Assembly: GCF_040954645.1 (NCBI RefSeq)
Contig: NC_092809.1
Span: forward strand, 79,937,435 to 80,001,434
Direction: 5' to 3'
From: Diabrotica undecimpunctata
Lineage: Eukaryota > Arthropoda > Insecta > Coleoptera > Chrysomelidae
Length of the DNA: 64,000 nt
Positions 1-59,125 of this stretch are shown in pieces; within the stretch, counting starts at the first letter, position 1, and the number at the start of each line of letters is the position of its first letter. A program made the translations under genes and the position numbers. The notes under the pieces are model-generated. The model was given only the letters and a program-made list of their open reading frames with translations, was not told the origin of the DNA and searched no databases.

Positions 1-3000
1 GAGATTTCTTCCCTGGAAAGCAAAGTTTCTGCTAACATCTCTTCAGAAATCTCTAAAGTCACTTCTGAGATGTGTGCCCTGGACGATAGAATATCTTCGT
101 TAAAAAACCAAGTTGCTGCCGATAAGTTGGCCTTCGAAGAAAAGATTAAAGAGATGGAAAGGAAGATGGAAGAAACAGGGACAGCAGAGAGAGGTAACAA
201 TCCGATTACAATGGAGATAAAAGAAGACGAGACGAAATTTAAGTTGGAGACACGGCCGAAATTTGAAGGAAGTGGAGGTTCTATTCATGTTAAAGTCCCA
301 ACTTTCGACGGAAAATCATCATGGAACAACTACATGAAACAGTTCGAATCAGCCGCAAGAGCGAATGGATGGTCTGAAAAAGAAAAGGCTGTAAACCTGA
401 CTATCGCTCTTCGAGGAGATGCCTTAGATGTACTTCAGACCATAGCCGTAGAGGAGACCGATGATTTCGAACAACTGAAGAAGAGGTTAAATATGCGATA
501 TGGCCACGAACATTTGGAGCATGTATATCAGTCGCAGCTTAAAAATCGTAGACAGAAGAAAGATGAGGCTCTTCAAGAATATGAGGTAGATATTGCCAGA
601 TTAGTACGATATGCTTATCCAACAGCTCCCGAAGACATGATGGAAAAATTGGCCGTTCAAACGTTTATTGATGGTCTTCGTGATCATGAAATGCAGAGAA
701 CACTACGATTAGCTCGTCACAAGACGCTGGTTGATGTCTTATCCGCCGCCCTCGAATACGAGTCAGCTACGCAGGCCTCTGGCGGGTACAGTAAAGTTAG
801 AACTGTAAAAGAGGAAGGAGATGAAGATAAACTTGACCAGCTCGTTAATATGATAAAAAGCATTACATGCAAGAAAACGAAGACTATAAAATCAAGGAAC
901 TCACCATCAGAAAAACCAGAACGAGTCGGCTTTAGGGGAGCAGCTTCGACCCGGAACTTTTCCAAAGACCCTCTCATACTAATAGCTTCTTTGAAATGTC
1001 GTGAAGATAGTGTATATGTAGATGGAGACATAAATGGTAAAAAGCATACGTTGTTGGTGGATACCGGAGCGACCAGAACCATTATACGCCCGACAGTTAT
1101 AAACAGCCGAAAGAAACTGTTACCAACGAGGTTACGACTTCGGACCGCTACAGGTGAAAATGCCAACATTCATGGAGAAATCCAGGTACAATTGGGAATT
1201 GGGGCAGAAAAGTTTGTCCATACTGTTATAGTTGCTGACATCGAAGAGGATGTTATATTAGGAATGGACGTAATGAATATGCATGGATTCCAATTGGATT
1301 TTAAGAATAAGGTAATCAAAGTTGGCAACGAGGAGGTATTTCTCCATCCACATAATGACAACACTGTGCAAGCAGCCATTACAGAAGATACAGTCGTGCC
1401 TGCGAGAAGCGAAACGATCATAGTAGCGCGACTACAGGGAATTGTAGACGAAGGGAGACCTGTTATGATGGAGCCTTGGAACCACGACGATGAGGTTGGC
1501 CGTGGAATCATAATTGGAAAGGAATTGGTGACTTCGGCTAAAGAAATTCCTGTGAGACTTATCAATGTCAACGACTACCCAGTGACCATAAAGAAAGAGA
1601 CAAAAGTAGGAACTTGTGTACCTGTGACATCCATAATTCGTCAGGCGACAACATCTGATAATTCCAACGACAAATTCGACCAAATGGTTGCAGTTGCAGG
1701 ACAGTCTCTAAATCAGATGGAGAAAAGGAAATTAAGGGAATTTCTTCGGCAGTATCGTGATATTTTCGTACCGAAAGGAGGAAAGACGGGAAGAACTACC
1801 GTTGTTAAGCATAAAATTGATACTGGTAATGCTAAGCCAATTCGTCAAACAGCTCGACGATTACCACAGGCGAAGAGAGAGGAAGCTGAAACGATTGTTC
1901 AGGAAATGAAGAAAGACGGGGTGATAGAACCTTCTACGAGTCCATGGGTCTCTCCGGTGGTCCTGGTTAAGAAGAAAGACGGAACGACGAGGTTCTGTGT
2001 GGATTACCGTTTGCTGAACAACGTTACCAAGAAAGATAGTTATCCTCTGCCTCGGATCGATGACACATTGGACACATTGGCTGGAAGTAAATTGTTTTCT
2101 ACTTTAGATTTGAAGTCTGGATACTGGCAGGTAGAAATGGACCCAGTCGATAAAGAAAAGACAGCCTTCACCACAGGATCTGGATTGTGGCAATTCAACG
2201 TTATGCCATTTGGACTTTGTAATGCTCCTGCGACATTTGAGAGGCTTATCGAAAATGTGTTGAGAGGGTTATCTTGGAAAACATGCCTGGTTTATTTAGA
2301 TGACATAATCGTCTTGGGGGAGACATTCGAAGATCATTTGAGGAATTTAGAAAACGTTTTTAATCGACTTAAAGCTGCCCAATTGATGCTAAACCCCAAG
2401 AAGTGCCAGCTATTTCAAGGTAAAGTCAATTATCTGGGTCATATAGTCAGTAAAGAAGGAGTGGCCGTGGATAAGGGAAAAATCGATTCCATTAAGGAAT
2501 GGCCAAAGCCAACTGACAAACATCAAGTGAGAAGTTTTCTTGGACTATGTACTTACTACCGAAGGTTTATTAAGAAGTTTGCAGATATCGCTAAGCCATT
2601 AACGCGACTTACAGAGGAAACAAGAAAATACCGCTGGGATATAGACTGCCAAAATGCCTTTGAAACGTTGAAAAAGCATTTAATAACAGCACCAATTTTG
2701 GGGTATCCACTGCCAGAAGGAGAGTTCATCTTAGATACGGATGCAAGTAACGTGGGAATTGGAGGAGTGCTGTCTCAGATTCAAGGAGGACAGGAACGAG
2801 TCCTCGGATATTTTAGTAAAGTCCTTTCAAAACCTGAGCGGAATTATTGCGTCACGAGAAGAGAACTTCTGGCAGTAGTGAAATCAGTAGAGCACTTCTA
2901 TCAATACCTCTATGGAAGGAAGTTTTTAATCCGAACCGACCATGCCGCCCTTAAGTGGTTGATGCAGTTTAAGAATCCAGAGGGTCAGATAGCCAGGTGG

Positions 3001-5175
3001 ATCGAACGACTCCAAGAATACGATTTTAAGATTGAGCACCGAGCCGGAGTTAGCCACAGAAACGCTGATTCTCTTTCCAGAAGGCCATGCCCAGCAGAGT
3101 GTCCCCACTGCAACAAAACGGAATCCAAGGAAGCAGCAGTGCTAAGAACGACGATTGTCAACGACGACTGGACGCCTACTAAGATAAGGGAAGAACAAGA
3201 GAGAGATCCAGTTATACAGAAAATCCGAAAATGGAAAGAGGAAAACCGTCGACCACCTTGGCAGGAAATATCAAACCTATGCTCAGTAGTTAAGACGTAT
3301 TGGGCCCAGTGGGACTCATTTATCATCGAAGATGGCTTGCTTAAACGAGTCCTGGAAAATGATGACGGTTCAGAGAAGAGAAGACAGTTGGTGATCCCAA
3401 AGAGCAGAATAGCCGAAGTACTTCGTCAGTTACACGACAGTCCATCGGGAGGGCATTTTGGTGTAAGGAAAACCCTTCAGCGAATTCGGGAACGATTTTA
3501 TTGGATGAACAGTTCCGACGACGTAAAAGACTGGTGTAAGAAATGTACTATTTGTGCTACGAGTAACGGGCCTCACCGGAAAAGGAGAGCTCCTATGAGA
3601 CAATATAATGTTGGAAGCCCGTTTGAAAGAATAGCTTTGGACATTGCAGGGCCATTTCCAGAAAGTGAAAATGGGGGCAAGTACATGTTGGTAGTAATGG
3701 ATTACTTCACTAAGTGGGTCGAGATTTACGCACTTCCAGACCAGAAGGCCGCCACCGTTGCAGATAAGTTGATCCAAGAATATATCAGCCGATTTGGAGT
3801 GCCTTTGGAGATCCATAGTGGCCAAGGCAGGAACTTCGAAAGTGATCTATTCCAAGGAATATGTGATAGACTAGGCATGAAGAAAACAAGAACTACCGCG
3901 TATCATCCGCAATCGGATGGTATGGTAGAACGAATGAATAGGACAGTTGGCAAGTATTTGACAAAGATGGTGTCCGATCATCAGCGAGACTGGGACCAAT
4001 ACCTTCCGTTCTTCACAATGGCCTACAGATCTGCTGTTAACGAATCAACGGGCCAGACACCAGCCAGAGTCCTATTCGGACGCGAAATGCGACTACCTTG
4101 TGATCTAGAATTTGGGTGTCGACCTGGAGAAGATGTAGCAGGTGAAGATTATGTGATCGAATTACGAAGAAGAATGGACGATGTACATGAGTTGGTCCGT
4201 TCCCACCTTCAGATCGCTAGCGACCGAATGAAGAAACGGTACGATACACAAGCCGAAAAGGGTTGCTTTAAGAAGAACGACAAAGTATGGCTGTATAATC
4301 CCAAGAAGCGAAAAGGTTGTTCTCCCAAATTGCAGCAGTTTTGGGAAGGTCCATACCTCATCATGGAGAAGATCAACGATGTCATCTACCGAATAAGCAA
4401 GATTCCGAGGGGAAAGCCGATGATAGTACACCATAACCGGTTGGCATCTTTCGAAGGTGACCACGACGTAGATGAAGAAGTGGAAGTAAACCAAGTCCAA
4501 GATGTGTTTGACCTCACGTTTGAGGAATTCATGGGTGCCTATGGAGGTACCGGTAAAGCGAGACATGGTGTTACCACTGAAGAAAAGCAAGATCTACTCG
4601 CGCTCCCCGATGACTACTCGCTGGCCCTTACCATCCCGGCCAGTATCAAAGACGCACCAGGGTTGGCATCCGTCTTTCGAAGGAAGTTTGGTCGAGTTGC
4701 AGAACTTCAATGCCAAGTGCCAGCTCCCGGTAAAACCTTGAAACTCCAAGATGCATCACGTTACCTTTTCTACCTGGTAACAAAAGACACTGCCCGTGAC
4801 CAACCTACCTACCGAGATGTATGGGAAGCCTTACTTCAATTGAGAGGGCACGTACTAGAGTCCGACGTGCAAAAGTTAGCCATGCCAAAGTTGGAGTGCC
4901 GCCAATTAGATTGGAGGGTTATCCGAAATATGGTGGAGGAGATCTTTAAAGACACCGAAGTCCAGGTGTTAGTCTGTTGCAATCCGCATAGTTACTGGTG
5001 CGGAGAGAAAACCGTCCCTTGTCATTTTTATACAACTGGAAGTTGTAAAAGAGGGTCCAGTTGCCGATACCAGCATACCGTTCCAGTTCTAGTCCCAACA
5101 AGGTTCCAGGAGGAACCATCTTTTGAGAGGGGGGCAATGTTACGTAAAAATATGAGTCATAGTTTTAACCTTTAA
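1..5175 (+). CDS. Gag-Pol polyprotein with C-terminal macro domain and CCCH zinc finger (5' partial)
   Basis: The frame is open from base 1; the first ATG is at 70 and residues are counted from it (1701 aa), but the 24 codons before it are open and coiled-coil-like, so the true start is probably upstream. Order: coiled coil (1-45), Gag capsid-like (75-240, no CCHC knuckle seen), protease DTGA (D331), RT with YLDD (742-745), RNase H (D889, D891), integrase zinc-binding HHCC from H1122, and integrase core D1191, G1251, E1287. The middle catalytic Asp is Gly (GGC, 3820-3822); its 35-residue spacing to E1287 confirms the position. Residues about 1512-1637 match the OARD1/TARG1-type macro domain in layout: APGLASVF, KFGRV, YLFYLVTK, PTY and LAMPKL. 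Residues 1651-1669 form C-x7-C-x5-C-x3-H. No stop or frameshift breaks the frame. The macro call is from recalled family hallmarks, not a search. Confidence 0.88.
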   Translation, partial: EISSLESKVSANISSEISKVTSEMCALDDRISSLKNQVAADKLAFEEKIKEMERKMEETGTAERGNNPITMEIKEDETKFKLETRPKFEGSGGSIHVKVPTFDGKSSWNNYMKQFESAARANGWSEKEKAVNLTIALRGDALDVLQTIAVEETDDFEQLKKRLNMRYGHEHLEHVYQSQLKNRRQKKDEALQEYEVDIARLVRYAYPTAPEDMMEKLAVQTFIDGLRDHEMQRTLRLARHKTLVDVLSAALEYESATQASGGYSKVRTVKEEGDEDKLDQLVNMIKSITCKKTKTIKSRNSPSEKPERVGFRGAASTRNFSKDPLILIASLKCREDSVYVDGDINGKKHTLLVDTGATRTIIRPTVINSRKKLLPTRLRLRTATGENANIHGEIQVQLGIGAEKFVHTVIVADIEEDVILGMDVMNMHGFQLDFKNKVIKVGNEEVFLHPHNDNTVQAAITEDTVVPARSETIIVARLQGIVDEGRPVMMEPWNHDDEVGRGIIIGKELVTSAKEIPVRLINVNDYPVTIKKETKVGTCVPVTSIIRQATTSDNSNDKFDQMVAVAGQSLNQMEKRKLREFLRQYRDIFVPKGGKTGRTTVVKHKIDTGNAKPIRQTARRLPQAKREEAETIVQEMKKDGVIEPSTSPWVSPVVLVKKKDGTTRFCVDYRLLNNVTKKDSYPLPRIDDTLDTLAGSKLFSTLDLKSGYWQVEMDPVDKEKTAFTTGSGLWQFNVMPFGLCNAPATFERLIENVLRGLSWKTCLVYLDDIIVLGETFEDHLRNLENVFNRLKAAQLMLNPKKCQLFQGKVNYLGHIVSKEGVAVDKGKIDSIKEWPKPTDKHQVRSFLGLCTYYRRFIKKFADIAKPLTRLTEETRKYRWDIDCQNAFETLKKHLITAPILGYPLPEGEFILDTDASNVGIGGVLSQIQGGQERVLGYFSKVLSKPERNYCVTRRELLAVVKSVEHFYQYLYGRKFLIRTDHAALKWLMQFKNPEGQIARWIERLQEYDFKIEHRAGVSHRNADSLSRRPCPAECPHCNKTESKEAAVLRTTIVNDDWTPTKIREEQERDPVIQKIRKWKEENRRPPWQEISNLCSVVKTYWAQWDSFIIEDGLLKRVLENDDGSEKRRQLVIPKSRIAEVLRQLHDSPSGGHFGVRKTLQRIRERFYWMNSSDDVKDWCKKCTICATSNGPHRKRRAPMRQYNVGSPFERIALDIAGPFPESENGGKYMLVVMDYFTKWVEIYALPDQKAATVADKLIQEYISRFGVPLEIHSGQGRNFESDLFQGICDRLGMKKTRTTAYHPQSDGMVERMNRTVGKYLTKMVSDHQRDWDQYLPFFTMAYRSAVNESTGQTPARVLFGREMRLPCDLEFGCRPGEDVAGEDYVIELRRRMDDVHELVRSHLQIASDRMKKRYDTQAEKGCFKKNDKVWLYNPKKRKGCSPKLQQFWEGPYLIMEKINDVIYRISKIPRGKPMIVHHNRLASFEGDHDVDEEVEVNQVQDVFDLTFEEFMGAYGGTGKARHGVTTEEKQDLLALPDDYSLALTIPASIKDAPGLASVFRRKFGRVAELQCQVPAPGKTLKLQDASRYLFYLVTKDTARDQPTYRDVWEALLQLRGHVLESDVQKLAMPKLECRQLDWRVIRNMVEEIFKDTEVQVLVCCNPHSYWCGEKTVPCHFYTTGSCKRGSSCRYQHTVPVLVPTRFQEEPSFERGAMLRKNMSHSFNL

Positions 5176-5387
5176 AACATGTTTTTATTCTAATATGTTG
5201 TAGAGTTTACGAGAGGCCTCGATTTACCTGAGCGACCTTCCAGAACCGATGCGAGGGAAATCCAGTTTGCCTTTACCGTTTCGCCATCGAAGGTTTTAGA
5301 CTATTCGAGATAACGGCACTGGTATATAATAACGGAACTTTATTTGGAAGGGACAGTTAATTCTCAACACCCGCGCTCGCGAATTTG
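5138..5387 (+). repeat. 3' LTR (partial) of the macro-domain gypsy element
   Basis: It begins TGTTACG right after a purine tract (GAGAGGGGGG) and overlaps the last codons of the polyprotein. A TATA-like box (TATATAAT) lies near 5323-5330. TGTTACGTA occurs again at 5386, next to the LINE junction, so the right limit is uncertain. No partner LTR is in the window to fix the ends. Confidence 0.55.
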
Positions 5388-8300
5388 TTACGTACGGATA
5401 TAATAAATTATTGTCAGATAAGTTAATATAAATAAAGAAATAAATTAAATCCGTAAGTGTTATAAATATTGAACCTTTTAATAAATTCACAACAATATAC
5501 TCGTATATTTTTATTATAAATTGGTTTATACATCGTGTATTTAATGAGCAATTTAAAACTAAATGCTCAATTGAGCCTTCTTCACCACATTCGCAAAATG
5601 GAGTTTCGGCTAAATTAATTCTAAATTTATGTAACGGAGACAGAGCATGGTTAAATCTTATTCTACATAGTATTCTAATTATATCTTTATTAAAATTTGA
5701 GTTTTTGAACCACGTTGAGGACTGTATTTTTGGTTTTATATCTTTATAATATAATCCTTTGTTGGACAAATTGTACAGTGTTTGCCATGAATTTAACATT
5801 TTTTTTCTTAGATGAGAATTTAGATCTTCAATTACACATTTATATTCTAATTCTTTAGATGGTTCATTACATTTAGCAATTTTATCTACTATTTCATTAT
5901 TTAATATTCCACAATGAGCTTTTATCCAACAAAACATTACATTAGATCCTCTTAATTTTATTGTACCCACCAGGTTTATAATTTCAGATAACACATAGTT
6001 AAATCCAATATTGTTATATTTAGAAACATTTTCAATTTTTTGTATTGAACTTTTACCATCAGAGAATATAACGTAATTAGATTTTGTTCTTGAGAAATTA
6101 CTAATATATTTAAGTGCTTCTAATATTGCTATTAATTCAGCAGTATATATCGAGGTTTTAATATTTAGATCTACTACTGTACTAAATTTTCGATCTGGAT
6201 CGTAAAAGGCAGATGTAACCTTTAAAACTGATTTAGATGCATCCGAAAAAATATATGAATAATTAGGGAACATAGACTTTATGTCAGCTTGGAACATGCT
6301 ATTCCGGATATATTGTGGAAATTCTGAGTAGTCTCTAAGATATCCTACTTTTATACTGTCCAAGTCTTCTAATTCTATTTTAAAACATGGTAATTCTCTT
6401 GAAGTCGAAATGTCCTTACTAAGTTGTATCCTTACGTATTTGTACGATTCAATAATAGGAATTGTAGGCTTTGTTTGCCAATATTCCTTAACTAGATCGT
6501 AAATACTGAGTTGAAAGCATTTTTGGACTACCGGACTTTTCTTTGCATACATTTTTAATAAAAACTTCTCCGTTAAGTAATCTCTTCTGAAATTTAGTGG
6601 AGGTTCATTGCATTCTACATTTAAATTTGAAATGGGTGTACTCTTAAGTGCACCTATACTTATTCTTAAGACTTTATTTACTAGCCTATCTAATTTCTTC
6701 AGGTGAGTCTTCGCTGCTTGACTATAAAAAATTGACCCATAATCTATTATTGAACGAATATAAGCTTTATAAAAGGTAAGCGTAATATTTGGATCAGCTC
6801 CCCAACTTGTATGACACACTGATCTTATTGCATTTAATCCTTTTTCTGTTTTTGTTATTAAGCGGTCTATGTGTTCGTTCCACAATAACTTCCTATCTAT
6901 TACCATACCCAAATAGTTAATGGATGATTGAACCACAAAATTAACGTTATTTAATACTATACATTGTGGTAATCTATGTTTTTTGGAGAATATACATGCT
7001 TGGGTTTTCTTTGTAGAGATACTGAGTCCTATATTAAAATAATACTCTTCTATTGTCGAAAACATTTTACTCATTATATTGATACCTTGATCGATTTCAA
7101 CTTTAGGTACATATATACACACATCATCAGCAAACTGTAGAACATTTCCTCTTGTATTCATTTTTTTGTGTAAGTCTGAGGTATAAATGAGATATAGTAA
7201 AGGACTAAGGATGCTTCCTTGCGGTAACCCAACATTAGAAATTCTTGGATCCAATAGTTCATTATTGATTTGAAGTTGTAGATTCCTATTTGAATACAGT
7301 TTTATTATTCTTTTACCAAAGTCACTGGGTAGTCCTATCTTCTCTATTTGATGATAGAGGATATTTAATTTGATATTATCATATGCACCTTCTACATCTA
7401 TGAATAGAGATACCAGGGATTTACGTTCAGAAAAGGATATATTAATATCTAGGATAAGGTTAGCTATATTTTCTGATGTCGATCTTAGTTTATGAAACCC
7501 ATATTGTGTATCACTAATTTTGTTATTTTTCTCTAACCATAATTCAAGTCTTCTCTTTACCATCCGTTCAAATGTTTTTAAAATACACGATCCTAATGAA
7601 ATTCCTCTATATGAATTCGCTGAGTCTATATCTTTATTTGGTTTTAAAATCGGTATAATTACATAATCTTTCCATGAATCTGGAAATTCACCTTTCATCC
7701 ATATTAAATTAATTATATTTAACAATTTTATTTTCTGACACCTTGGTAAGTAATACAGCATAATATAATGGACATTGTCTAAGCCAGGAGCAGTATTTTT
7801 ATGACACTTTAAACTATATTCTAGTTCTTTTAGAGTAAATTCATATAACAAATAGTTTAAATTATTATTATTCACTTTTTTAGGATGGTTTACATTTAAA
7901 TTTGGTGAAACCCAGGGCGGAGCTAACTTATTTAAAAATTCTTCAGTCCAATTATCTTTCTTTACTTGATTTTTTGGGACATTATAAGTATTTTTGATTT
8001 TTTAAATTTCTTTCTAAATTTCTTGGACCGGAGTATTTTTATTTAATTTATTACAAAATTCTCGCCAAGAAGCTTTTTTACTTTTTAATATTGTTTTTTT
8101 CTTAATTGCCTCTGCTTTCTGATATTTTATGTAATTTTCATATGTACTATTTCGTTTAAATTCTAAAAAAGCTTCTTGCTGAAATTTTATAGCTTGTGCA
8201 CATTCTGGGTTCCACCATTTTTTATTAAACTTACTATTGATCGTCATTTTTTTCTTAGGTATTGATAATTCACAAGCATCATTAATTCTATTGATAAATG

Positions 8301-9104
8301 TATTATATATGTTATTAATATTTTCATCAGTATTTATATCTTTGGTGTCAATAGTTTCAAGAATCGAAGAAAATAACGACCAATCTGCTCTGTTCACGTT
8401 CCATCGGGTTCTCTCATTAACTATTGTTATATTATCAACATCGCTTTCAATTATTATTGGAAAGTAATCAGAACCTAGAGATACATTTTTTACGTTCCAA
8501 TCAAAACAGGAAGATATGTCACTGGAACATATAGTTATGTCCACAGCTGATTTATTTCTAGTGTATAATCTAGGTATTATAGTTTCGGCCCCATTATTTA
8601 AAAAACATAACTCACAGTCTTCTATTGCTGTTAATAGACTAAGTCCAGCCCTATCCTTCTGATCGCAACCCCATGCATTATGGTGACAATTAAAGTCTCC
8701 TGCCACCAAAAATGGTGTACTTAAACTATTAAAAAACTTTTTCCATTCACTCTCTGATACGTTTAAATTTGGTTTTGCATACACTGAATATATATATTAA
8801 GTACTTTATTTGATTTTAATTTGACTGTTATTGATATACTCATAACCTGATTGATTTTATGATGATTTGGATTACCTGTGAACTGAATGTGTTTTTTAGT
8901 TAAAATAGCTAATCCTCCATAACCATCATCTCTATCTCTCCGAAATATATTATAACCACTGAAATTAATATTATTTTTTTCTTTTAACCACGTTTCACTA
9001 ATTATAGCTATATCAATATTATTTTCAAAAATAAATTTCTCAAAATGACCTTTATTGTGTACAATGGACCTAGCGTTCCACTGTTCAATTTTGAACTTAT
9101 TCAT
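5388..9104 (-). pseudogene. LINE ORF2: endonuclease, reverse transcriptase, RNase H (broken)
   Basis: Starts at ATG 9104. Endonuclease segment: QWNARS near the start, SETW, then GDFNCHHNAWG. The usual SDH motif reads SDY, so the catalytic His is Tyr. A frameshift lies near 8785, next to a short AT run. Two in-frame stops (TAG and TAA) occur in the linker at about 7990-8015. Reverse transcriptase follows, with NSYRGISL, VEGAYDNI, LPQGSILSPLL and FADD. RNase H (about 6270-5850) keeps FSDASK, TAELIAILEAL, SDGKSS and KAHCG. A CxC...H-x4-C segment (CECGEEGSIEHLVLNC) near the end is usual in this clade. The broken frames mean it cannot encode an active protein. Confidence 0.88.
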
Positions 9105-17340: not shown

Positions 17341-18590
17341 ATGTCTACACAAGTATCTACATTTCAATTTTCCGTTGAATCTTTCAACCAGTCTGCCACC
17401 AAATGGTCCAGGTGGGTAAAGAGGCTGGAAGGTGCTTAGAAGGTATTTAAAATTCCAGACGAAATGAGATTACCTTATCTACTACACTACATGGGTTCTG
17501 AGGCCTACGACACCCTATGCGACAAGTTAGCCCCAGAAGTCCCGGAAGACAAGTCATACGACGACATTGTCAATTTATTGGATAATTTTTACAACCCTGC
17601 ACCCCTGGAAATTGCAGAAATCTTCAGATTCCAATCAAAAAGGCAAGCCGAAGGAGAAACAATACAAGAATACTTTCATTCACTACAAAAGTTGTCAATT
17701 AACTGCAATTTCTCTACATATCTTAAAAGTGCTATAAGAAACCAATTTGTTTTTGGCCTACGATCGAAAAGAATACAAGCTAGACTTCTAGAATCAAAAG
17801 AACTGGACCTAGATAGAGCCGTTGAGATTGCCACAAGCATGGAGGCATCAGAAAAGGACAGTAACCAATTTTTTCATAATCAAAATTATAATAATTCTAG
17901 TGTCAATATATTAAATACAAAAGCAAGGAGTGCAAATAATAATAGGATGCAATTTCAGAATAACTCTGCTGCAAATTCTTCAAACACAAATAGTAATGTA
18001 TGTTATAGATGTGGAGATCCTTCACATTTAGCAAATTCTTGTTCAAAAAAACATTTAACTTGTAATTTTTGTAAAAAAGTTGGACACATTCAAAAAGTTT
18101 GTTTAAAATCAAAAAATGTTAGGTCTAACCAAGTAACTTCAGTTTGCTCAGTTCAAGAAATTTTTAAGATTAGTACTGTAAATTCAAAAGACAAATTTTT
18201 TATAAACTTAAGAGTAAACAACAATATTTTAAAATATGAAATTGATTCAGGTGCTGCTGTTACCATTGTAAACAAAAATATATTTGACACATATTTTTCT
18301 ACACTACAATTACAGAAATCTGATGTAAAATTAACTACATACTGTAAAAATCATTTAAATGTTTTAGGGTTAACTCCAGTGGAGGTTGAGCACCAGGGAA
18401 TAAGGCAAATGTTAAAGTTGTACGTGGTGGATGGTGAGGGTCAATCACTAGTTGGAAGAGAATGGATACGTGCCCTTGGAATTAAACTACATGAGGTAAA
18501 AAAAATATCACATGAGAACTCTAAAGTCTCAAGTTTATTAGATAAATACAAACATTTGTTTGAAAAGTCAATTGGTTTTACAAAAAGTAG
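17341..18590 (+). pseudogene. Gag-protease of the mag-like element (nonsense codon, then truncated)
   Basis: Start ATG 17341 (MSTQVSTFQF). Codon 33 is TAG (17437-17439); the same frame then continues open through Gag, two CCHC knuckles (CYRCGDPSHLANSC and CNFCKKVGHIQKVC, about 18000-18100) and protease with YEIDSGAAVTIV (about 18235). Near 18590 the frame ends, because sequence expected between protease and the RT fingers is missing and the RT lies in another frame. Without readthrough the stop leaves only 32 residues. Confidence 0.85.
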
Positions 18591-21124
18591 AGTTTTCAGA
18601 TTGGGCAACCCCAATTGTCCCAGTTGTCAAACACAATGGGGACATACGCATTTGTGGGGATTTTAAAATTACTTTAAATCCCTGTATTGAAGTGGACGAA
18701 TATCCTTTACCTACCCCTGATGATCTTCTATCTCAGTTAGCAGGGGGCGATAAGTATTCAAAAATAGACATTACAAAAGCTTATTTGCATTTACCTATAA
18801 AAAGTGAAATGAAACATTTACTTACACTTAATACTCACAAAGGTCTGTACCGCCCAAACCGTTTAATGTTCGGTATTGCAAGTGCTCCTGCCAAATGGCA
18901 ACGTTTAATGGAACAAATGTTACAAGGAATCGATGGTATTTCTGTGTTCTCAGATGATATAAGAATTACTGCCCCAAATACTGATATACATTTACAAAGA
19001 CTTGAACAAGTGTTACAAAAATTATCTGAACATAATTTACATATAAATTTAGACAAAAGTGAATTTTTAAAAGACGAAATTGAATACTGCGGATACAAAA
19101 TAAATAAATTTGGTATTACTAGTAGCTCAGATAAAGAAGATGCAATTGTAAATGCTCCAATACCAGAAAATAAAACTCAAGTCCGAAGTTTTTGTGGGTT
19201 AGTTAATTATTACAGACGTTTTTTACAACATACCTCTACAATATTAAAACCTTTAACAAATCTACTTAAAAATCATGTTGAATTTGAATGGTCCCGAGAT
19301 TGTCAAATGGCATTTGATAAAGCCAAAAGGCTTATTTCTTCTAAAAATGTTTTGTGTCACTACGACCCAAATTTGCCATTAGTCCTTGCAACTGATGCAT
19401 CCCCTTATGGTGTTGGTGCAGTACTGTCCCATATTTTTCCAGACGGTACAGAAAGACCGATACAATTTGCTTCTCAAATGTTAACCCTTACACAGCAAAA
19501 GTACTCTCAAATAGATAAAGAGGCATACAGCATTATTTTTGGTGTGAAAAAGTTCTTCAATTACCTATATGCTAGAAATTTTATTTTATACACTGATCAT
19601 AAACCTTTAGTCCAGATTTTTGCACCAGATAAAAGTCTACCAGTTTTAAGTGCTACAAGAATGCAGCATTATGCAATTTTCTTACAAGGTCTAAAGTATG
19701 ATATTCGATACAAAAATACAGATTCTCATTTTAATGCAGATGCTCTTTCACGTTTACCTATTAAAAATGAACAAAATTATACTCATGATGAACCAGACAT
19801 ATTCGAACTTAATCAGATTGAAAATTTACCTACAGATGTTAACAGTTTATCTTTTCATACCAAAAATGATGCTACTTTACAAAAGTTAATATTAGGTTTA
19901 CAAACTGGTGAGGTTGTTGAAAAACAATTCAGATTTAACGTAGATCAATCAGAGTTTTCACTACAGTCTGGAGTCATAATGAGAGGAGAACGAGTTTTAA
20001 TACCTATGAAATTAAGAAATAAAATTCTGCAGGAATTACACACTGCGCATTTTGGTATGGTGAGAATGAAGTCTTTAGCCCGGAGTTACTGCTGGTGGCC
20101 TTTCATAGACAAGGATATTGAATCGTTATGTAAAAATTGTTTTCATTGCAACAAGCACAAAAACAATCCTGTTAAGCACAATTCCCACATCTGGGAAACA
20201 CCTAAATTTTGCTTTGAAAGAGTACATGCTGACTATGCTGGACCTTTTAACGGAGGCTATTACTTCATTTTAGTCGATTCTTTTAGTAAGTGGCCTGAAA
20301 TACATTTCACGAAAGACACTACTACAAAAACTACAATCGAAATTTGTAGAAAAATCTTCACTACTTTCGGAATACCCACAGTATTTGTTACTGATAATGG
20401 TAGACAATTTGATTCTCATGAATTTAGAGAATTTATGAAGAATAATGGTATCACACATAAATTTACTGCACCCTATCACCCAGCCACGAATGGCCAGGGG
20501 GAGAGATATGTCCAAACACTAAAAAATTGTCTGCGAGCCATGCACAGTGAAGAGAAAGACAGAGAACTTGAATTGTGCAAGTTACTAATGCAGTATCGTA
20601 GAACACCTCACACAGTAACTGGCAAAAGCCCGTCTGAACGTAAGCTAGGAAGGCAGATTAGAAATAGATTAGATTTACTTAAACCTTTTACTCATGACAA
20701 AAATGCTTACACAGACCAGAGTCTTAGAAATGTTGCTATAGATACCAGAGTTTCAGTGGGAGATTACTTTAATGCCAAATGGCAATTTGGCAAGGTTATA
20801 CTAAGGTTAGGATTATTACATTATTTAGTTGAGTTAGATGATGGTAGGACGTGGAGACGTCATATTGACCAAATTAGAGTAATTGGGCAGGATACACCTA
20901 TAGAATATAACCCAACTTGTTTCATTCCTGATACAGTTACACATAGTATAGTTCCAAGGGAGGTATCTGTCCCTGAACCCAATTCCGTTTCACCACCTAC
21001 AAATGTACAAGAACTTCTAAATGATACAATAGAGCCAACAGTACCTGAGGCTCACACTGAAGCTGAACCAGTGTTAAGACGTTCAAGTAGAGTATGTAAA
21101 CCTGTTCAGAGGATGAATTTGTAA
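18575..21124 (+). pseudogene. Pol of the mag-like element: RT, RNase H, integrase (N-terminus deleted)
   Basis: Open from the deletion junction to TAA 21122-21124. RT starts abruptly at KVEFSDWATPIVPVV; SKIDITKAYLHLPI follows, and the YxDD box reads FSDD (about 18945-18960). RNase H has LATDASPYGVGAVL and YTDHKPL. Integrase has zinc-binding H...CKNCFHCNKHKN and the catalytic set HADYAGPF (D), VTDNGRQFDS (D), and GQGERYVQT (E), all kept. The loss before KVEFSDW removes part of the fingers and shifts frame relative to Gag-protease, so no active polyprotein can result. Confidence 0.88.
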
Positions 21125-34242: not shown

Positions 34243-35163
34243 TTAATTTTGCTCCATGTTTTTTCTTTTTAACATACAAATTTGTGTGGGTTCAATTTCA
34301 GGTATAGATTCAGTATTTTGGTTTTGTTTGTTTAGTATGTCTTCTCTTTTCTCTTTTTGTTTTGTATATAAGTTACTTAAAAATGGTTGCAATTCTTCTT
34401 TATGTCTTTGAACGTACGTTTCATATACTGGAAGATTAAAGTCCAAATGTATTTCCTCGGCGTATGGTCCGTAAAGTATTGAAAAAGGCGAAAAATTGGT
34501 CGCGCTATGAATAGATTGATTATAAATTAAAACAGCATGAGTAAATATGTCGTCTATTGGGTCATTTGGATTTTGGTCACGTAACGTTCTTAATTTTTCA
34601 ATTAGGGTAGAGTGAAAACGTTCTACTGGAGAATTGGAAGAAGAATTATTAACTGTGGTAAAATGTAATTCTATTTTATGTAGCTTCATGAATTCTATTA
34701 ATAAAGAGGAATTAAATTGTGTGCCATTGTCACATACGATTTTTCTAGGGTAATTGTGGTGCGAAAAATAATGTCTTAGTTTACTCAAAATTGAAATTGT
34801 GGTTTTGTCAGGAATTTTATAGCATTGCGCGTACTTGGAAAATGAGTCAATTATGGTCAGATATAAATTTTTATTACAATAAAATACGTCTATGTGTAAA
34901 ATATCGAAGGGCTTTTGTTCCAACAAAGGTCCTAATTGTGGAAGTTTGTACGGATGTCGTTCGTATTTGTTCTTTAGGCAAATTTCACATTTGTTAATAA
35001 AGTTTGAAATAGTTGTTTGCATAGAAGGCCAGTAATATTTTCGCTTTAAATGTTTGTACGTTTCCGTTATGCCATTATGATTTTCGGTATGATACCTTTT
35101 TACACATTCTATTTGGTTTATTTCTTCTTCAATGTCCTGTAATATAGTATTGCAAAACAACAT
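34243..35163 (-). CDS. Integrase segment of the errantivirus-like pol
   Basis: 306 aa from ATG 35163; the true upstream part is cut off by the LINE. Zinc-binding motif HTENHNG...CEICLKNK, then the catalytic core HIDVFYC (D), VCDNGTQFNSS (D) and SNSPVERFHST (E), all kept. It joins cDNA ends to the target. The C-terminus overlaps a second frame (34279-33977). The enzyme segment looks intact, but pol is split by the LINE and by a frameshift. Confidence 0.88.
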   Translation of the reverse strand: MLFCNTILQDIEEEINQIECVKRYHTENHNGITETYKHLKRKYYWPSMQTTISNFINKCEICLKNKYERHPYKLPQLGPLLEQKPFDILHIDVFYCNKNLYLTIIDSFSKYAQCYKIPDKTTISILSKLRHYFSHHNYPRKIVCDNGTQFNSSLLIEFMKLHKIELHFTTVNNSSSNSPVERFHSTLIEKLRTLRDQNPNDPIDDIFTHAVLIYNQSIHSATNFSPFSILYGPYAEEIHLDFNLPVYETYVQRHKEELQPFLSNLYTKQKEKREDILNKQNQNTESIPEIEPTQICMLKRKNMEQN

Positions 35164-35173
35164 CTTTATATAG

Positions 35174-38100
35174 TTACACTAAGTAGTAAAGGTGACAGTC
35201 TTTTAGGAAACGAATTATGGCACTGTACATGTTTGTAGAACCAAGTAGATCACTTAAATTATTTGGAAAGTTGTAGTAGTCTCTTTGAGGTTTGTAGTGG
35301 ACGCATTCTAGTAATATGTGCTGGACTGTTAAGGACTCATTACAATGTTCACAGCGAGGATGGTTTTCAGACGACATCAGATATCCATGAGTAAGACGAG
35401 TGTGACCTATTCTGAGCCTTCTGATGATAATATTGTCTTTTCTGCTCATTTGTGGCATGGTGGTGGAGGTAACAGTTGGTTGAATTGTGCGTAGTTTTGT
35501 ATTTTGTACATTCCAGTGTGTTTGCCAAGTGCTTAGTACGTTGTTCTTGATATTGGCCTTTAGGTCTTGGTGAAGTAGTATGTTTTCCATATTTTCTAAG
35601 GAGCAGGCCAGTTTTGCTGCATGATCAGCGTTCTCATTTCCATTGATACCAACATGGGATGGTATCCAGATGATAGTTACTGAAACACCATTCTTTGACT
35701 GCTCTTGGCAGATACTGTGGATGCACTGTACAATGGGATGGATGGAGTATATATTTCTGATTGAGTCAATGGCGGAGAGAGAATCGGTGCAAATTGCTAA
35801 TGATTTCTCATTAGCAATGGGCGAGTCTAATGCCTTGAGTATTCCATACAGTTCGGCTGTGTGTATACTGCATCTGGGAGAAAGCCGATATGATGCTACT
35901 GTTGTATTTGAGGTACTGACAGCACAACCGACGGCCTGTTCTTCTTTGGAGGCATCTGTGTAGAGAATTTTGTCATAATGCTGTGTCTGTATAAGTTCCT
36001 TAAATGCTTGCACCAAGAGAGTTCTGGGCGTTTCTTCTTTTTTGTATCGGTTCAAGCTGGTAAGGACAGTAGGTAGCTTTTTGGTCCACGGGGGGATTCT
36101 GGACGTAGTAAACGGAGTTGTGAGTTTTAGATCTGTGTCTTTTAGCAAACTTTTTAAAATTTGTGAGAGAGAATGTGCTCGAGGGTTACTATTATCTGGG
36201 ACAGAGTGGGGAGTATTAATTAGTTTAATTACTGGGTTTTTTGGATTAGCAGAAATTCTAGAGAAGTAGGATAGAAGTAAACGTTGCCGTCTTATAAAAA
36301 GTGGAGGTTCTGAGGATTCGATATAAAGACTTTCAGAAGGACTTGATTTAAAGGCGCCAAGGCTAATGCGTAAAGAAGTGTTGTGAATTGTATTCAGACT
36401 TTTAAGGTGAGTATCGGAAGCAGATATGTAAAGAATGCTTCCGTAATCCAACCTAGAGCGGATCAATGTTCTGTAAATTCTTAAGAGGACTTTCTCTTCT
36501 GCCCCCCATTGATGATGAGCTAGAGTTTTTAAGATGTTGATTCTATTTAGGCAGTTTGTTTTTGTATTCTGTATCTGATCTCTCCATGTGAGTCTTTTAT
36601 CGAATATTACTCCTAAGAATTTGTGTTTATCAACGACTTGAAGAGGAGAGCCATTTAGATGAAGTAGAGGAGGGTGAGTGTGATGTCTTCTAGAGAAGTT
36701 TATGACTTTAGATTTTCCAGATGAAAATTTGACTCCAATTTTAGTGGACCAGTTATGAAGATTGTTAAGAGTGTTTTGGAGTAAAGAGCATGTGCTCCTT
36801 GTAACTTTACCTTGGCAATAGAGAACAAGGTCATCTGCGTATATTGAGTATTTTATTGGAGGGAGAACAAGAGAGTTTATATCGTTGATGCTAAGAAGGA
36901 ATAGTGTGGGGCTGAGAACTGAGCCTTGGGGTACTCCATTTTGTGAGATATGTGATGTAGATGTTTTCCCATTTGTAACTACTTTGAATGATCTCTCTTG
37001 TAGGAAATTGTTTATAAAGGTGATAATATTACCCGTTAAATTGAGTTGCTCAAGTTTTCTAATAATAACAGCTCTGTTTATTGTGTCAAAAGCGCTTTCT
37101 AAGTCTAAGGCAACTGTGATGACTTCATTCTTATTTGATATAGCTTGGGTTATTTCTGTATGGAGAAGTACCAGGTTATCCATCGTACTTCGATTGGGTC
37201 TGAATCCCGACTGTGCTGCATCTATAAGATTATTTTCTTCAAGAAACCAAAGCAAACGTTTATTTATCATCTTTTCTAGTAGTTTGCACATTGTGCATGT
37301 TAGTGAGATTGGCCTGTAGGCACTGGGAAAGTTAGAAGATGAGTCATTTTTCTTGATCGGTATGATAAGCGACTGTCGCCAAAGACTCGGAAAGCTTTGG
37401 CTGAACCATATCTTATTGTAAAGCGCAAGTAGCTTCAGGAGGGTTCCTGCCTGTAGATGTTTGAGAAAGATAGACGGGATGTCATCTGGACCTGCAGATG
37501 AGTTTTTTATTGATGAGATTGCCAACTTTAACTCTACTTCTGTGAAGGCGAGGTTTATTGGATTGGTTTGGATAGGGTTAGGTGGTGAGTGGTTTGTGGG
37601 GTACGAAATGGAGAGTTCAGACTTAGTTTTGTTTTGAAAGTATTTGGCTAGCGTTTCGGTTATTTGGTTATCATTTGTAATGATATTATCTCCATCTGTT
37701 ATTGCGGATATTTTACGATATGTTTTTAAACCTCTCATTTGTTTAATTTTTGTCCACACTTGAGCGGGAGGGGTATCTGAAGTTATGCTGTTAACGAATT
37801 ATTTCCAGGATTCTTTTTTGCTTTCCTTCAGAATTCGTTTGGATTTTGCACGCATTTTCTTAAAATGAATAAGATCTTCGATGGTACGAGTTTTGCGATA
37901 TCTATTAAGGGCCTTTTTGTATTCTTTTATTGCGAGTTTACAGGAGTCGTTCCACCATGGGACGGCCTTTCTTGAGGGATTTATGGTGCATTTACCTATA
38001 CATTGGTTGGCCGCAGTTATAATGCAATTTGTAAATTGCTCTACGGCAGCGTCGATGTTTTCCTTAAAAATAATTTGGTTTGAAAGGTTTTCTAGAGTGT

Positions 38101-38815
38101 CACTGAATAACCTCCAATTTGCCTGGGCAATTTTCCATTTATTTATGACTTCCGCATTTTCGGGTATGTGACTTGAGATTAAAATGGGGTAGTGATTGCT
38201 ATCATATAAGCTATCTAGTGTTTGCCACTGAAGCAGGGGAGCGGTTCCAGGATCGCAAAAACTTAGATCTATGCAAGAAGAGGTTCCAGACTGGATGTGG
38301 AAATATGTGGGGCTCCCTGTATTCAAGAGGTTAATGTTAGAGTTGCTTATGATATCTTCGATATGTTTACCTCTCCCAAAGGTGCGCTGGGAACCCCATG
38401 TTGTGCTGTGAGCGTTAAAGTCCCCAACTAAGATGAAAGGGTTTGGCAGTTGTTTTATGAGGTCGCTTAGTTCTGAGCTAAATAAGTTGTAGTTTGGAGG
38501 AATGTATATAGAACAAATAACTATCTTGTTGGGACACCATGCGGTTATCGCAATCGCTTCTAGGCTTGTGTGTAAGTCAAACTCTTGATGGAAGATATCG
38601 TTGGAAACAAAAATAGATGAACCGCCACTTGCTCGTAGGTGTGTGGGTCTTAGGAAGTTGTAGCTAGTGTAATTTTTTAGGTAGGGGTTGTGATCTTTGG
38701 TGAAATTGGTTTCTTGAAGACAGATAAACTTGGGCGAGCAGTCCGATATAAGTTTTTGTAAATATTCTAGTCTGGGGTAAAAGCCATCGCAGTTCCATTG
38801 AATTAGACTTAGCAT
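35174..38815 (-). pseudogene. LINE ORF2: endonuclease, RT, RNase H (single nonsense codon)
   Basis: Start taken at ATG 38815 (MLSLIQWNCDG), 8 nt beyond the ORF1 stop; an in-frame ATG at 38890 would overlap ORF1. Endonuclease has QWNCDG, LQETN, VGDFNAHSTTWG and SNHYPI (Asp of SDH is Asn). TAA at 37799-37801 lies in the linker; the same frame then continues to 35174. RT has PSAYRPISLT, VALDLESAFDTI, VPQGSVLSPTLF and YADD. RNase H has YTDASK, HTAELYGILKAL, CTDSLSAID and WIPSHVG. C-terminal CEHCNESLTVQHILLEC closes it. Confidence 0.9.
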
Positions 38816-38825
38816 AGTGTTAGTA

Positions 38826-40223
38826 TTAATAGGAGCTGAATTGAGAAGATTGGGATAGTTGTGAGCTGTCAGAATTGTAGTTATCTTCATTAGAATCGAC
38901 GGAAAGATTTGGACTGGGCGTACTTTCGGATTCTTCTGGATCAGTGCCTAAGGCCTTTATCAGTTTTTTGGTTAGACGGGTTAGCCTGTTTTTGATAGAC
39001 CTCTCCTGACAAGTTGGGTATAATGCTTGAATGTTGGAAATTAGCCCTGATACATTTTCAGTAAACTTAAGAGCTTCAGCGTAGGGGTCACTACAGCCGA
39101 AAGTGTTTTCGACAAAGGCTATCAAGTTTTCTAGAGGAATAACAAGTGATTCTGAGGTTTGCTTAAAGGATTCTTTGATAGCGTCTTTTGTTAAATCGGA
39201 AAGGTAACGTTCTGATGGTGAATTTGTTCTGGGTTTCTTTTTTGGTTTCTTAATGTCTCTACTAGGGGGAGGCATGATGTTGTCCTCGGACGGATTTGCG
39301 ACCGAGATGTTATCGGGAATATCCGTCTGCTCACTTGTGCTCTCGATTTCAGAGTGGCCACGTTTATGTGTGGGCGTTTTAGTCATTATGGAATTGTTTG
39401 GTTCTGTAGCAGACATATGTGGTGATGTTGCGGGTTGTATAGAAGACTGTGGTGGTAAGGGATCTATTATCTGGGTTGATATTAACGGCTGAGGCTGGGA
39501 TGTTATATAATTAGGTGGAGGATTGGGACAATTTGAGGCAATATGCCCTGACTTCTTGCATATGTAGCATTCCATTTTGTCTGTGGACAAAAATATTCTA
39601 TTTTCATTACCTTCGAATGGGATAACTAAAGAAGTTTGCAGATTGAAATTGTCATCAGAGGTAAAAACATATACTTGCCTTCTAAAGCTCATGATGTGCG
39701 AATATTCATCGCCGGGGATACCTGCTCTTAAAAATGAGACGGGGGAGACCAGTTGGAGCCCAAGTTCTTTTATAGCATTTTCTGCAAGGTCGTATACCAC
39801 ACATGGAGATATATTGGATATTATTATTCTTTTTGTGGGAGAGACTAGCCTGCGAACATTCATCACAGAGTTTCCTACTGTTAAAGTCGGATGGGATTTT
39901 AGAAGTTTGTCGACGAGTTCTGAATTAGTTAAATATATACAAATTCTGTTATTAGATATTCTGGATGCGAATAGGATTTGTTTGGGACCAATAGCGTCAC
40001 CTACTGCCTTGACGTAATCAAACAATTTTAGATTTTCATCGGCATGCAGTACTATGGCTTGATCCCTCTTTGGAAAAGTTGATCTGGGAGTTGATTTGGT
40101 TGCAGTTGCATATGAGGAAGTTGAAGTGGAATTATGCTGCATATTTTGTGACATCTTGACAAGTTGTGAACTGTGAGGATCTGATGTGAGAACTGTATTT
40201 GTTATCGGTACCCTTGTAGTCAA
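38826..40223 (-). CDS. LINE ORF1: Gag-like nucleic-acid-binding protein
   Basis: 465 aa, intact. An N-terminal Ser/Thr-rich part is followed by an RRM-like or PRE_C2HC-like region (about 75-190), then one CCHC knuckle CYICKKSGHIASNC (about 217-230) and a long Pro/Ser-rich, later acidic tail. Proteins of this kind bind LINE RNA and form the RNP. A second in-frame Met at residue 24 (MSQNMQH) is an alternative start. The stop is 8 nt before the probable ORF2 start. Confidence 0.85.
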   Translation of the reverse strand: MTTRVPITNTVLTSDPHSSQLVKMSQNMQHNSTSTSSYATATKSTPRSTFPKRDQAIVLHADENLKLFDYVKAVGDAIGPKQILFASRISNNRICIYLTNSELVDKLLKSHPTLTVGNSVMNVRRLVSPTKRIIISNISPCVVYDLAENAIKELGLQLVSPVSFLRAGIPGDEYSHIMSFRRQVYVFTSDDNFNLQTSLVIPFEGNENRIFLSTDKMECYICKKSGHIASNCPNPPPNYITSQPQPLISTQIIDPLPPQSSIQPATSPHMSATEPNNSIMTKTPTHKRGHSEIESTSEQTDIPDNISVANPSEDNIMPPPSRDIKKPKKKPRTNSPSERYLSDLTKDAIKESFKQTSESLVIPLENLIAFVENTFGCSDPYAEALKFTENVSGLISNIQALYPTCQERSIKNRLTRLTKKLIKALGTDPEESESTPSPNLSVDSNEDNYNSDSSQLSQSSQFSSY

Positions 40224-40429
40224 AGGTAGACGAGAAATTTATTTATTTGTTAAATTTAGTTAGGTTTTATGTATTTTCTTCCAAAAATACATATTAAGTA
40301 GGCCTACGCCACTGGTAGCTGACCCAGTTATTGACGAAATTACTAATTTGCTAATTAACTAATCGATCCAAAAAAAATCATGCAATTAGGCTTATCGATA
40401 CATACGGTAAAGTCTGGTCTTACTAGTAT

Positions 40430-42918
40430 TTAAAAGTAGTTGTTTGGTTTCACAAAAACACTAAAACTCGGAGCAAAACACTGATACGATGTTACCTCGT
40501 TCAAGTACACACTCGGAATGAAGAAGACTTTTACCGTCGTATTTATATTATCTTTAAAATAGTTACAAATAAATGGCCTTAATTCGTGTGCTACTTTAAT
40601 TGCAAATTTTTGATTAGGTTTAAGTATATTTTTTAGCATTTCTGGAATTTCTTTTTTCCAGTCATTAGTTAAATTTATTGTGTATCTGTGTTTATCGAAA
40701 ATTTTCTTATAGGTTAAATCGTTAGTTAGCGATTCTGGAATTATAATTATTTGATTTTTCGAAAGATTAATAGGTTCTTCTGAAATTTGAATTCCTGTAA
40801 TAGGATTTTCAATAGCCGTATGTTGTGTGTTGTCAGTGCTGTTATTATTTTCTTGAATTGCGATAAATTCTTCAAGGAATTGGTCTGGGTCAAAATCGTT
40901 AAGATCTGGGGGTTCTGCGCACATTGAACTGCGAGTTAACGCGTTGATTTGAACTCTAGAGAGGTCGTCTGCTACTTGATTCTCTTTTCCTTTTTTGTAT
41001 TTGACCGTAAAATTATAGTCTTCAAGTTTTAATCTCCATCGAGCTAATCTTGATGTGGGATCCTTAATTTTATAGATCCACACCAGTGGGTTATGGTCGG
41101 ATTCGACAGTAAATTTTTTCCCATATAAATAGGGTTTGAAATGTTTACAGGAATCTATAATTGCTAAAAGTTCTTTTTCGGTCGTCAAATAATTTTGTTC
41201 TGCGGAGTTTAGTGTGCGGGAGTAATAGGCAATTGGGTGATTATTCTGTGTTAAGACAGAGCCTATTGCAATATTGGAGGCATCTGTTGTTAGTACAAAA
41301 GGTACTGTAAAGTCAGGATATTTAAAAACTGGGGCATTGGATAGTAATTGTTTGCATTTTTCGAAGCACTCTAAATAATTGGGATTTTTAGGGTCAATAA
41401 TAGCTCCTTTGCTCGTACAACGAGAGAATGGGGATGTAATTTTAGCGAAATTAGGGATTGATTTCCTTTAATGTTTTTGGAAGAGGGTAGTTTTGTATAG
41501 CATTCAATTTGGAAGGATTGGGTTTTATGCCATCGGGCGTGACTATATGTCCAAGAAATGCGACTTCTTTTGTCAAGAATTCTGATTTATCTAGCTGAAC
41601 CTTAAGATTAGTTTCCCTGAAAGTGTCAAATATGGTAGAAATGTGAACAAGATGTTCTTGCAATGATTTCGAAAAAATAATAACGTCATCCATATAGACG
41701 AAACAGAATTTATATAGATAAGGGCGTAAAATATTATCCATTAGTCTTTCAAAAGTAGCTGGGGCATTTTTGAGACCAAAAGGAAGTCTTAAAAATTCGA
41801 AATGACCATGTGGAACCGTAAAAGCGGTTTTCTCAATAGAATTAGGATTTAGTTCGATTTGGTGGAAACCTTGAGCTAAATCGAGAGTCGTAAAATATGT
41901 CGCTTTGCCTAAATTATCTAAAATGTCATCAATTTTAGGTATGGGGTACTTATCGTCTACTGTGTTTTCATTTAATTTGCGGTAGTCGATAACCATTCTA
42001 AATTTTTTCTCGCCGGATGCGTCGGCTTTTTTTGGTACAACCCATACAGGGGCTGAATAAGGTGATATAGATGGTCTAATAATTTTATTGTCGAGAAGTT
42101 TATTCACTTGCCTGGTTATTTCTTCTTGCATACTTTTCGGGTGGCGAAATCCTCTGACATATATGGGATTATCGTCTTGCGTCCTTATTTCGTGCTTTAT
42201 CGCCGAAGTGAAGGTTAATGGTGCTTTTTCGTCATAAAATATGTCCTTGTATCTCTTGCATAATTTTAAAATTTTCTCTTTTTCTTCTTCGTTTAAATGT
42301 TGCGTGCGTATAATTGAAGGGTCAAAATTCGTGGGTCCTTTACAAATTTCGTACTCATCTAAATTCTCTACATGAATCGGCTCCATTTGTACCGGGTTAT
42401 CAAATGTGATATTATTAATATAGCCATTTGTAACTGTATGAATAGATTCAGGTAATTTTATATTATTTATTATAATTTCTTGAAGCAAAATATTTCCATT
42501 ATCAATGTCTACTGGAATTTTATTATACAACGTTTTAAAAGGAATCCTATAACTAGTGTTATACGTATTTAATGTCAGTGTCATATTTTTATAGTTAATG
42601 ACCGCGTTTAATTTTTCGAGATCCGCATTACCTAGTAAAATATCAAAATCTCGACTGAAATTTGCAACTCTGGCGTCAAATAACACAGATATGTTCATTT
42701 CGCTAAGCAGTGGCGTTCTTATATTGTCATTAAAAGTTTGCGTAATTTCCATTGCAGTTAATTTAAATGGTTTTTTATATTTGTGGGATGGATTAAAATA
42801 TTTGGTAGCGTTGGGTGAAATAATGGTATCTGATCCTCCGGAATCTATTAGGACTTTTAATTTAGACTTGGGTAAAACAAAATAAGGTATTTGAGGATAG
42901 TTGTGGATATTATTTAAG
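40430..42918 (-). pseudogene. Protease, RT and RNase H of the errantivirus-like pol (frameshifted)
   Basis: Begins by a -1 shift from the gag frame at CCCCCTCAATAA (42917 region). Protease has LIDSGGSDTII (about 42850-42820). RT has FRMVIDYRKLNENT, TTLDLAQGFHQI, FGLKNAPATFERL and YMDD (about 41700). The frame stops at 41451 in the region joining RT to RNase H, where a short conserved segment is missing, and resumes shifted. RNase H follows with TTDASN and ESDHNPLVWIY, then a connector that ends at the LINE near 40430. Defective as it stands. Confidence 0.87.
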
Positions 42919-58486: not shown

Positions 58487-59125
58487 ATGTCGACCACAAG
58501 GAGTCAAAGCAAAATGCAAGAAAGGAAGGAGGATAACAGAGAAGAGGAAACAATTGTTGAAGAAGGATCGGATAATGAAGGAAATGTTACAATAGTTGAG
58601 GAAAAAAAAGAATTATCAGGAATAGAGAAATTATTAGCAATGATGCAAATACAGACACAAACAATGAATGAAACATCACTAAAAATGGATAGAAATCAAC
58701 AAGAAACAAAACAAACAATGGCAGAAACAAAACAAACAATAGAGAAAAACCAAAAAGAAACATCACTAAAAATGGAAGAAAACCAACGGCAAACAAAACA
58801 AACAATGAGCAAGATAGAGCAGCGTCTGGAAAACTATGAACAGGAAATTAGAGGATGTGTTGAGGGGATAAAGAAAGAACTGATACAACAAATAGAAGAG
58901 ATTAATGAAATTAAAAATGATATGAAAGAACAAGAAATGAGAATTAAAGATAATTTGGAGGAATTAGAAAGCAAACTTGAAAATGTAATGAAAGATAGTA
59001 AGACGGTCCAGAAAAAGGAATTAGAACAGTTAGAAGAAAAATTTGAAATGGCATTACAAGAAGACAGGAGGGAAGTAGAAAGAAGATTAAAGCAAAATGA
59101 AAACAAATGGCAGAAATTGAACTAA
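58487..59125 (+). CDS. Coiled-coil Gag N-terminal protein
   Basis: From ATG 58487 (MSTTRSQSKMQERK), about 212 aa. After an acidic start it is nearly all predicted coiled coil, with imperfect repeats of TKQTM/ETSLKM and long Glu/Lys/Gln heptads. It has no Cys-rich motif. It ends 19 nt inside the next frame (59107), which is in the -1 frame, so the two could be joined by frameshifting or translated by reinitiation. Its place before the capsid suggests a Gag assembly domain. Confidence 0.75.
   Translation: MSTTRSQSKMQERKEDNREEETIVEEGSDNEGNVTIVEEKKELSGIEKLLAMMQIQTQTMNETSLKMDRNQQETKQTMAETKQTIEKNQKETSLKMEENQRQTKQTMSKIEQRLENYEQEIRGCVEGIKKELIQQIEEINEIKNDMKEQEMRIKDNLEELESKLENVMKDSKTVQKKELEQLEEKFEMALQEDRREVERRLKQNENKWQKLN

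Follow-up and report, generated by a model that had tools for sequence, protein, structure and literature searches.

Predicted TARG1-derived macro domain and CCCH zinc finger as a C-terminal extension of the integrase in a beetle Ty3/gypsy retrotransposon

A 64,000-nucleotide stretch of the Diabrotica undecimpunctata genome (NC_092809.1, positions 79,937,435 to 80,001,434; hereafter the window) carries a Ty3/gypsy retrotransposon in which, as domain and homology searches indicate with high confidence, a TARG1-derived macro domain and a CCCH zinc finger form a C-terminal extension of the integrase, an arrangement shared by descent with related elements. The element begins upstream of the window, its gag-pol frame being open to window position 1, and on the forward strand a single open frame of 1701 aa runs from an ATG at 70 to a stop at 5175 (70..5175). 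Pfam matches within this frame follow the order expected of Ty3/gypsy elements, namely gag (Retrotrans_gag, 400..684; E 1.1e-8), part of the aspartyl protease profile (gag-asp_proteas, 1018..1182; E 9.1e-7), reverse transcriptase (RVT_1, 1966..2400; E 2.1e-31, a match that ends where the searched piece ends), RNase H (RT_RNaseH and RT_RNaseH_2, 2635..3021; E 4.1e-35 and 7.4e-34), and the integrase zinc-binding H2C2 (3394..3567; E 7.3e-22), core rve (3622..3909; E 2e-12) and C-terminal Integrase_p58_C (4348..4446; E 2.4e-13) domains, the last with a GPY motif in WEGPYLI (4342-4362). Beyond a 45-residue linker (4447..4581, the gap between the integrase and macro domain limits), a TARG1/OARD1-type macro domain of 131 residues (4582..4974) and, separated from it by a short spacer, a finger of the form C-x7-C-x5-C-x3-H (5020..5076) occupy the space between integrase and LTR. 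Directly downstream lie a polypurine tract (5125..5137, approximate limits; identical letters precede the 3′ LTR in eight other copies) and then the 3′ LTR itself (TGTTACG...ACAACA, about 357 bp, 5138..5494 by comparison with other copies), which holds the final codons and the stop of the gag-pol frame. The match to other copies extends to 5498, four bases past the ACAACA end. The 3′ LTR alone is readable for the window copy; paired LTRs, a polypurine tract and a short target duplication were found in eight further copies for which both ends could be read.

The genome searched comprises 2867 contigs totaling 1.74 Gb. A search with the tail scored 150 of 5861 candidates, and every one of the 150 was full length at 100%. 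Ranking by tail similarity is biased to intact tails, and the genome was resampled with the RT/RNaseH piece as query (131 scored of 17,964 candidates), from which 40 of the 131 were fetched, a non-random set hand-picked from about the first 60 rows with the window copy excluded. The macro-CCCH module was reached in 39 of these 40 copies, at different genomic places, and was open in the same frame as the integrase in 36 (the others having one stop, two gaps and one truncation). LTR pairs of eight copies were 96.7 to 100% identical, seven of them at least 99%, with the eighth differing solely by gaps; all eight were flanked by 4-bp duplications, one within a TA repeat. Such copies are recent insertions, and the many nearly identical copies indicate that the family was recently active. 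Given the 39 copies, the eight with LTR pairs and duplications, and the presence of the fusion in other species, the chance that it reflects an assembly error or an accidental joining to host sequence is negligible. The open frames of the copies fall into classes, often of 1422, 1431 or about 1780-1850 codons, suggesting that gag is open in some copies and not in others. Similarity to the window ends at 5144, just within the LTR, in 29 copies of the sample of 40, which points to LTRs of at least two types.

As the earlier note on this DNA had proposed, the segment behind the gypsy integrase is homologous to TARG1, with significant sequence similarity to human OARD1/TARG1 (E 6.7e-22) and a macro fold nearest to TARG1. 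The Pfam Macro profile was not reported for the window copy in the Pfam scan, so the TARG1 assignment is based on matches to PDB sequences and folds. An initial structure model from six sequences was discarded (pLDDT 42.5). In TARG1, Lys84 is described as the nucleophile and the covalent intermediate as being resolved by Asp125, with the hydrolase pattern given as TKx(30,35)Px[IL]GxGxD (PMC6397177). A Thr-Lys pair equivalent to T83-K84 is present in the window (4780..4785), is invariant across the six sequences of alignment A3, and is retained in 39 of the 40 window-subfamily copies, the remaining one being truncated upstream of the site. The earlier note had the catalytic Lys replaced by Pro, which proves incorrect; the Pro it intended may be the one that stands at the position of Ser35 in TARG1 loop 1. 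Its statement that the loop with the catalytic Asp is absent holds: loop 3 (PKLECRQLDW, 4885..4914) aligns as PKLEC--RQLDW, two residues shorter than in TARG1, and lacks GxG and D125. The full TARG1 pattern was found in five of 20 element-type relatives vs 101 of 102 other listed proteins. By this comparison, ADP-ribosyl hydrolysis has probably been lost or crippled in the window's lineage, leaving a binding or structural role, and ADP-ribose binding may be lost as well, because the pyrophosphate-binding GxG loop is absent.

The CCCH finger that had been read after the macro domain is upheld by Pfam PF00642, at 28.1-29.3 bits against a cut-off of 20.5. Its nearest solved relatives are the fingers of CPSF4/CPSF30 (PDB sequences, E 1.5e-11); CPSF30 binds A/U-rich signals.

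The same fusion, looked for in related insect elements, was found in proteins of other beetles. Among the best 120 of 1020 proteins listed, the macro module occurs in Molorchus (Cerambycidae), Brassicogethes (Nitidulidae) and Pyrocoelia (Lampyridae), in Aromia, which we take to belong to Cerambycidae, and in Gonioctena, Callosobruchus and Diabrotica virgifera, presumably all Chrysomelidae. The leafhopper Macrosteles (Hemiptera) probably has the module too, the fusion there resting on a few residues like an integrase end in a gene model without a finger. Twenty element-type relatives (13 from named insects and seven without a named source) were read by pattern and by eye. Lys is kept in all 20, P0017 having Pro in place of the Thr, and of the 19 extending to loop 3, Asp is kept in 15, a count that includes four Aromia and two Molorchus rows which are non-independent. 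Half of the 20 show the CCCH pattern, the rest being cut short, altered or without a finger. Six of the proteins (P0002, P0003, P0004, P0015, P0018 and P0021) plainly include integrase sequence as well, at E 5e-10 or better, and in P0019 the integrase match is slight (E 0.002). The closest named copies, at 74-83%, are from D. virgifera, in which two proteins named OARD1-like (P0006 and P0007) look like pieces of elements of this sort, a point of consequence for annotation. In the same species, the model of P0008 (tachykinin-like peptides receptor 86C) holds a fragment that is 85% identical to the element macro domain and is likely part of a retrotransposon annotated as an exon. Searching viral_contigs with the tail gave no relative. 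The insect TARG1 sequences of a 2019 survey, 84 as given there, are all from flies and mosquitoes (PMC6397177), so the beetle element domains went uncounted in it.

When human TARG1 was used as the query on the genome (150 scored of 4799 candidates), the best match, L009 at 49%, was a 683-aa frame without integrase in which both catalytic residues are kept; this OARD1-like frame, found at L009 and L034, is probably a host gene. At L034 (3733-5784, reverse strand) the N-terminal half of the 683-aa frame is repeated in part, the TARG1 motifs are complete, and additional sequence is present at the C-terminal end. The other 149 matches were 38-40% identical to human TARG1. From this second subfamily (subfamily B), 11 of the 149 (L010-L020) were read together with 12 loci (L021-L032) that came from a different query, L015 and L023 being the same locus, and 22 of the 23 had a readable frame. 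Arg stands at the place of Lys84 in all 22, Asp is kept in 20, and a finger is visible in 19. Among the loci read, the alignments thus present two abundant subfamilies, each without one catalytic residue through a different change; several catalytically complete relatives score below subfamily B under the human TARG1 query.

A midpoint-rooted tree of 34 domains took in those of 17 elements, the leafhopper row, 15 vertebrate rows and host L009, with L009/L034 counted as one host OARD1-like gene and the sole insect OARD1 included. The element domains and the leafhopper row split from host L009 and vertebrate OARD1 with support of 96/90. The idea that a retrotransposon had captured a host ADP-ribose module is therefore retained as regards a TARG1-derived domain in the element, and given up as regards a fresh capture. 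The Asp-less P0002, P0004, P0005 and P0006 group with the window copy (100/98), so that a single loss explains them, and subfamily B adjoins this group with weaker support (81/76). The integrase of the window subfamily is 66% identical to that of subfamily B and 63% identical (232 residues) to that of an Aromia polyprotein; both of these relatives have the macro-CCCH tail too, which argues that integrase and tail were inherited together. One capture followed by long vertical descent would be the simplest history; the catalytic loss appears secondary in it, because 15 of the 19 readable relatives keep both catalytic residues.

Comparison of the window (A) with L012 (B) showed saturated synonymous sites (pS 0.85 in the macro domain) and pN values of 0.20 in H2C2-rve, 0.39 in macro, 0.40 in spacer plus finger and 0.45 in the linker. 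These values point to long-term constraint at the protein level on the macro domain, weaker than on the integrase, with the finger kept. Changes shared among the 40 copies numbered 26 synonymous and seven nonsynonymous in the integrase (ratio 0.084) and seven synonymous and four nonsynonymous in macro (ratio 0.204; binomial p 0.01 against neutrality), so that constraint among recent copies looks weaker on macro than on the integrase, the difference between the two ratios being non-significant (Fisher p 0.42). Single-copy changes in macro (five synonymous, 11 nonsynonymous; ratio 0.78, p 0.42) are compatible with neutrality. Spacer plus finger had no synonymous and six nonsynonymous shared changes, numbers that are small.

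The explanation we favor joins this lineage identity and history to an ADP-ribose-guided integrase mechanism, and as a whole we hold it to be somewhat short of probable; the mechanism itself, in which the extension would act with the integrase at ADP-ribosylated chromatin or DNA, is a tentative proposal. An ancestral element would have held a complete TARG1-type ADP-ribosyl hydrolase, from which the window's lineage would have lost the D125/GxG loop through one shared deletion, while in a second subfamily of the same genome K84 would have changed to Arg. The extension would accompany the integrase within the pre-integration complex. There the macro domain would recognize, and ancestrally also remove, ADP-ribose at broken DNA ends or on the chromatin of the host, and this recognition would help the integrase choose or clear sites, with the CCCH finger holding element RNA or cDNA intermediates. 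In favor of such a mechanism are the placement of the module, which is that of the chromodomain in chromoviruses (PMC12440569), and the activity of DarG, the nearest structural neighbor of TARG1, on ADP-ribosylated DNA. A binding or structural role would remain in the window's lineage after the loss of hydrolysis. In a very improbable variant, catalytically complete relatives would read and erase ADP-ribose, and in the window's lineage the Lys, without the Asp that frees the product, would form a lasting lysyl-ADP-ribose anchor to ADP-ribosylated chromatin or DNA ends.

Erasure might instead have been directed against silencing, the complete ancestral domain stripping the host's silencing ADP-ribose from chromatin proteins or element products, with its activity later lost in lineages of this genome after host pressure had changed. 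The two abundant subfamilies amplified despite one missing catalytic residue each, and we know of no case in beetles where LTR elements are silenced by way of ADP-ribose; both points count against such a role. The retention of Lys together with Asp in most readable relatives speaks for it, as do the silencing of L1 in mammals through mono-ADP-ribosylation of KAP1 by SIRT6, as reported in PMC4695847, and the recurrent loss of macrodomain activity described for alphaviruses and host PARP14 (PMC10221186), and on balance we think it unlikely. A similar standing is given to a tail that is structural or binds nucleic acid, with the macro fold as a scaffold and the CCCH finger binding element RNA for packaging or processing: both subfamilies have lost a catalytic residue yet retain the domain and nearly always the finger, and the kinship of that finger to CPSF4/CPSF30 fits, but the active-site Lys and Thr are unchanged in every window-subfamily copy that reaches them. 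The earlier note's thought of a counter-defense, aimed at an antiviral system of ZAP- or PARP-like type in the cytoplasm, has lost ground and is now improbable. Many RNA viruses, some of them of insects, do have macro domains, and the best viral fold match, VP8 of Kadipiro virus, is 34% identical; most vertebrate PARPs are described as absent in insects, however, and insect-specific alphaviruses as having lost macrodomain activity (PMC10221186, PMC7729036).

Set among known systems, the element belongs to a known kind, LTR retrotransposons that have captured a C-terminal module, and an ADP-ribose module at the integrase end was not found reported. To our knowledge no such module stands at that end, unlike the well-known chromodomains. 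A literature search, its broadest result sets viewed in part, gave no report of insect gypsy elements with a macro domain. Human TARG1/OARD1/C6orf130, the terminal ADP-ribose protein glycohydrolase, is homologous, the element version differing in lying within a polyprotein with a CCCH finger. TARG1's nearest structural neighbor, the macrodomain of the DarG antitoxin (a DNA ADP-ribosyl glycohydrolase acting on ADP-ribosylated DNA), is bacterial, 19-24% identical and joined to other partner domains. Kadipiro virus is an insect-borne dsRNA virus with an unrelated genome, and its likeness is a structure library match alone; several thrips-associated RNA viruses come after its VP8 in the fold-match list, and a literature search for Kadipiro and macro domain found nothing. 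Chromoviruses, described as Ty3/gypsy elements with a chromodomain at the integrase C terminus (PMC12440569), have an accessory reader domain at the same position, where the window element has macro-CCCH instead; Pfam scans of its C-terminal pieces gave no Chromo match. Macro domains are also on record in fish endogenous retroviruses (PMC4977317); these epsilon-like elements likewise combine retroelement and macro domain but, compared by description only, are vertebrate retroviruses with additional open reading frames. The fusion ties ADP-ribosylation to insect retrotransposon biology, and its natural pairs of complete and degraded domains permit direct testing.

Other retroelements lie in the window. 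Another gypsy-type element (17464-21124, forward strand) carries a CCHC knuckle and has an integrase 28% identical to that of the first, with no macro or CCCH match reported for it. Further pieces at 34246-42752 (reverse) and 59107-60996 (forward) include an integrase accompanied by H2C2, an RT in a frame of its own, and a frame for protease whose Arc-capsid match scores under the profile threshold. A non-LTR element at 5296-8784 (reverse), with one frame for RT and RNase H and another for endonuclease, overlaps the 3′ LTR and extends past it, and the gypsy copy seems to have inserted at its end.
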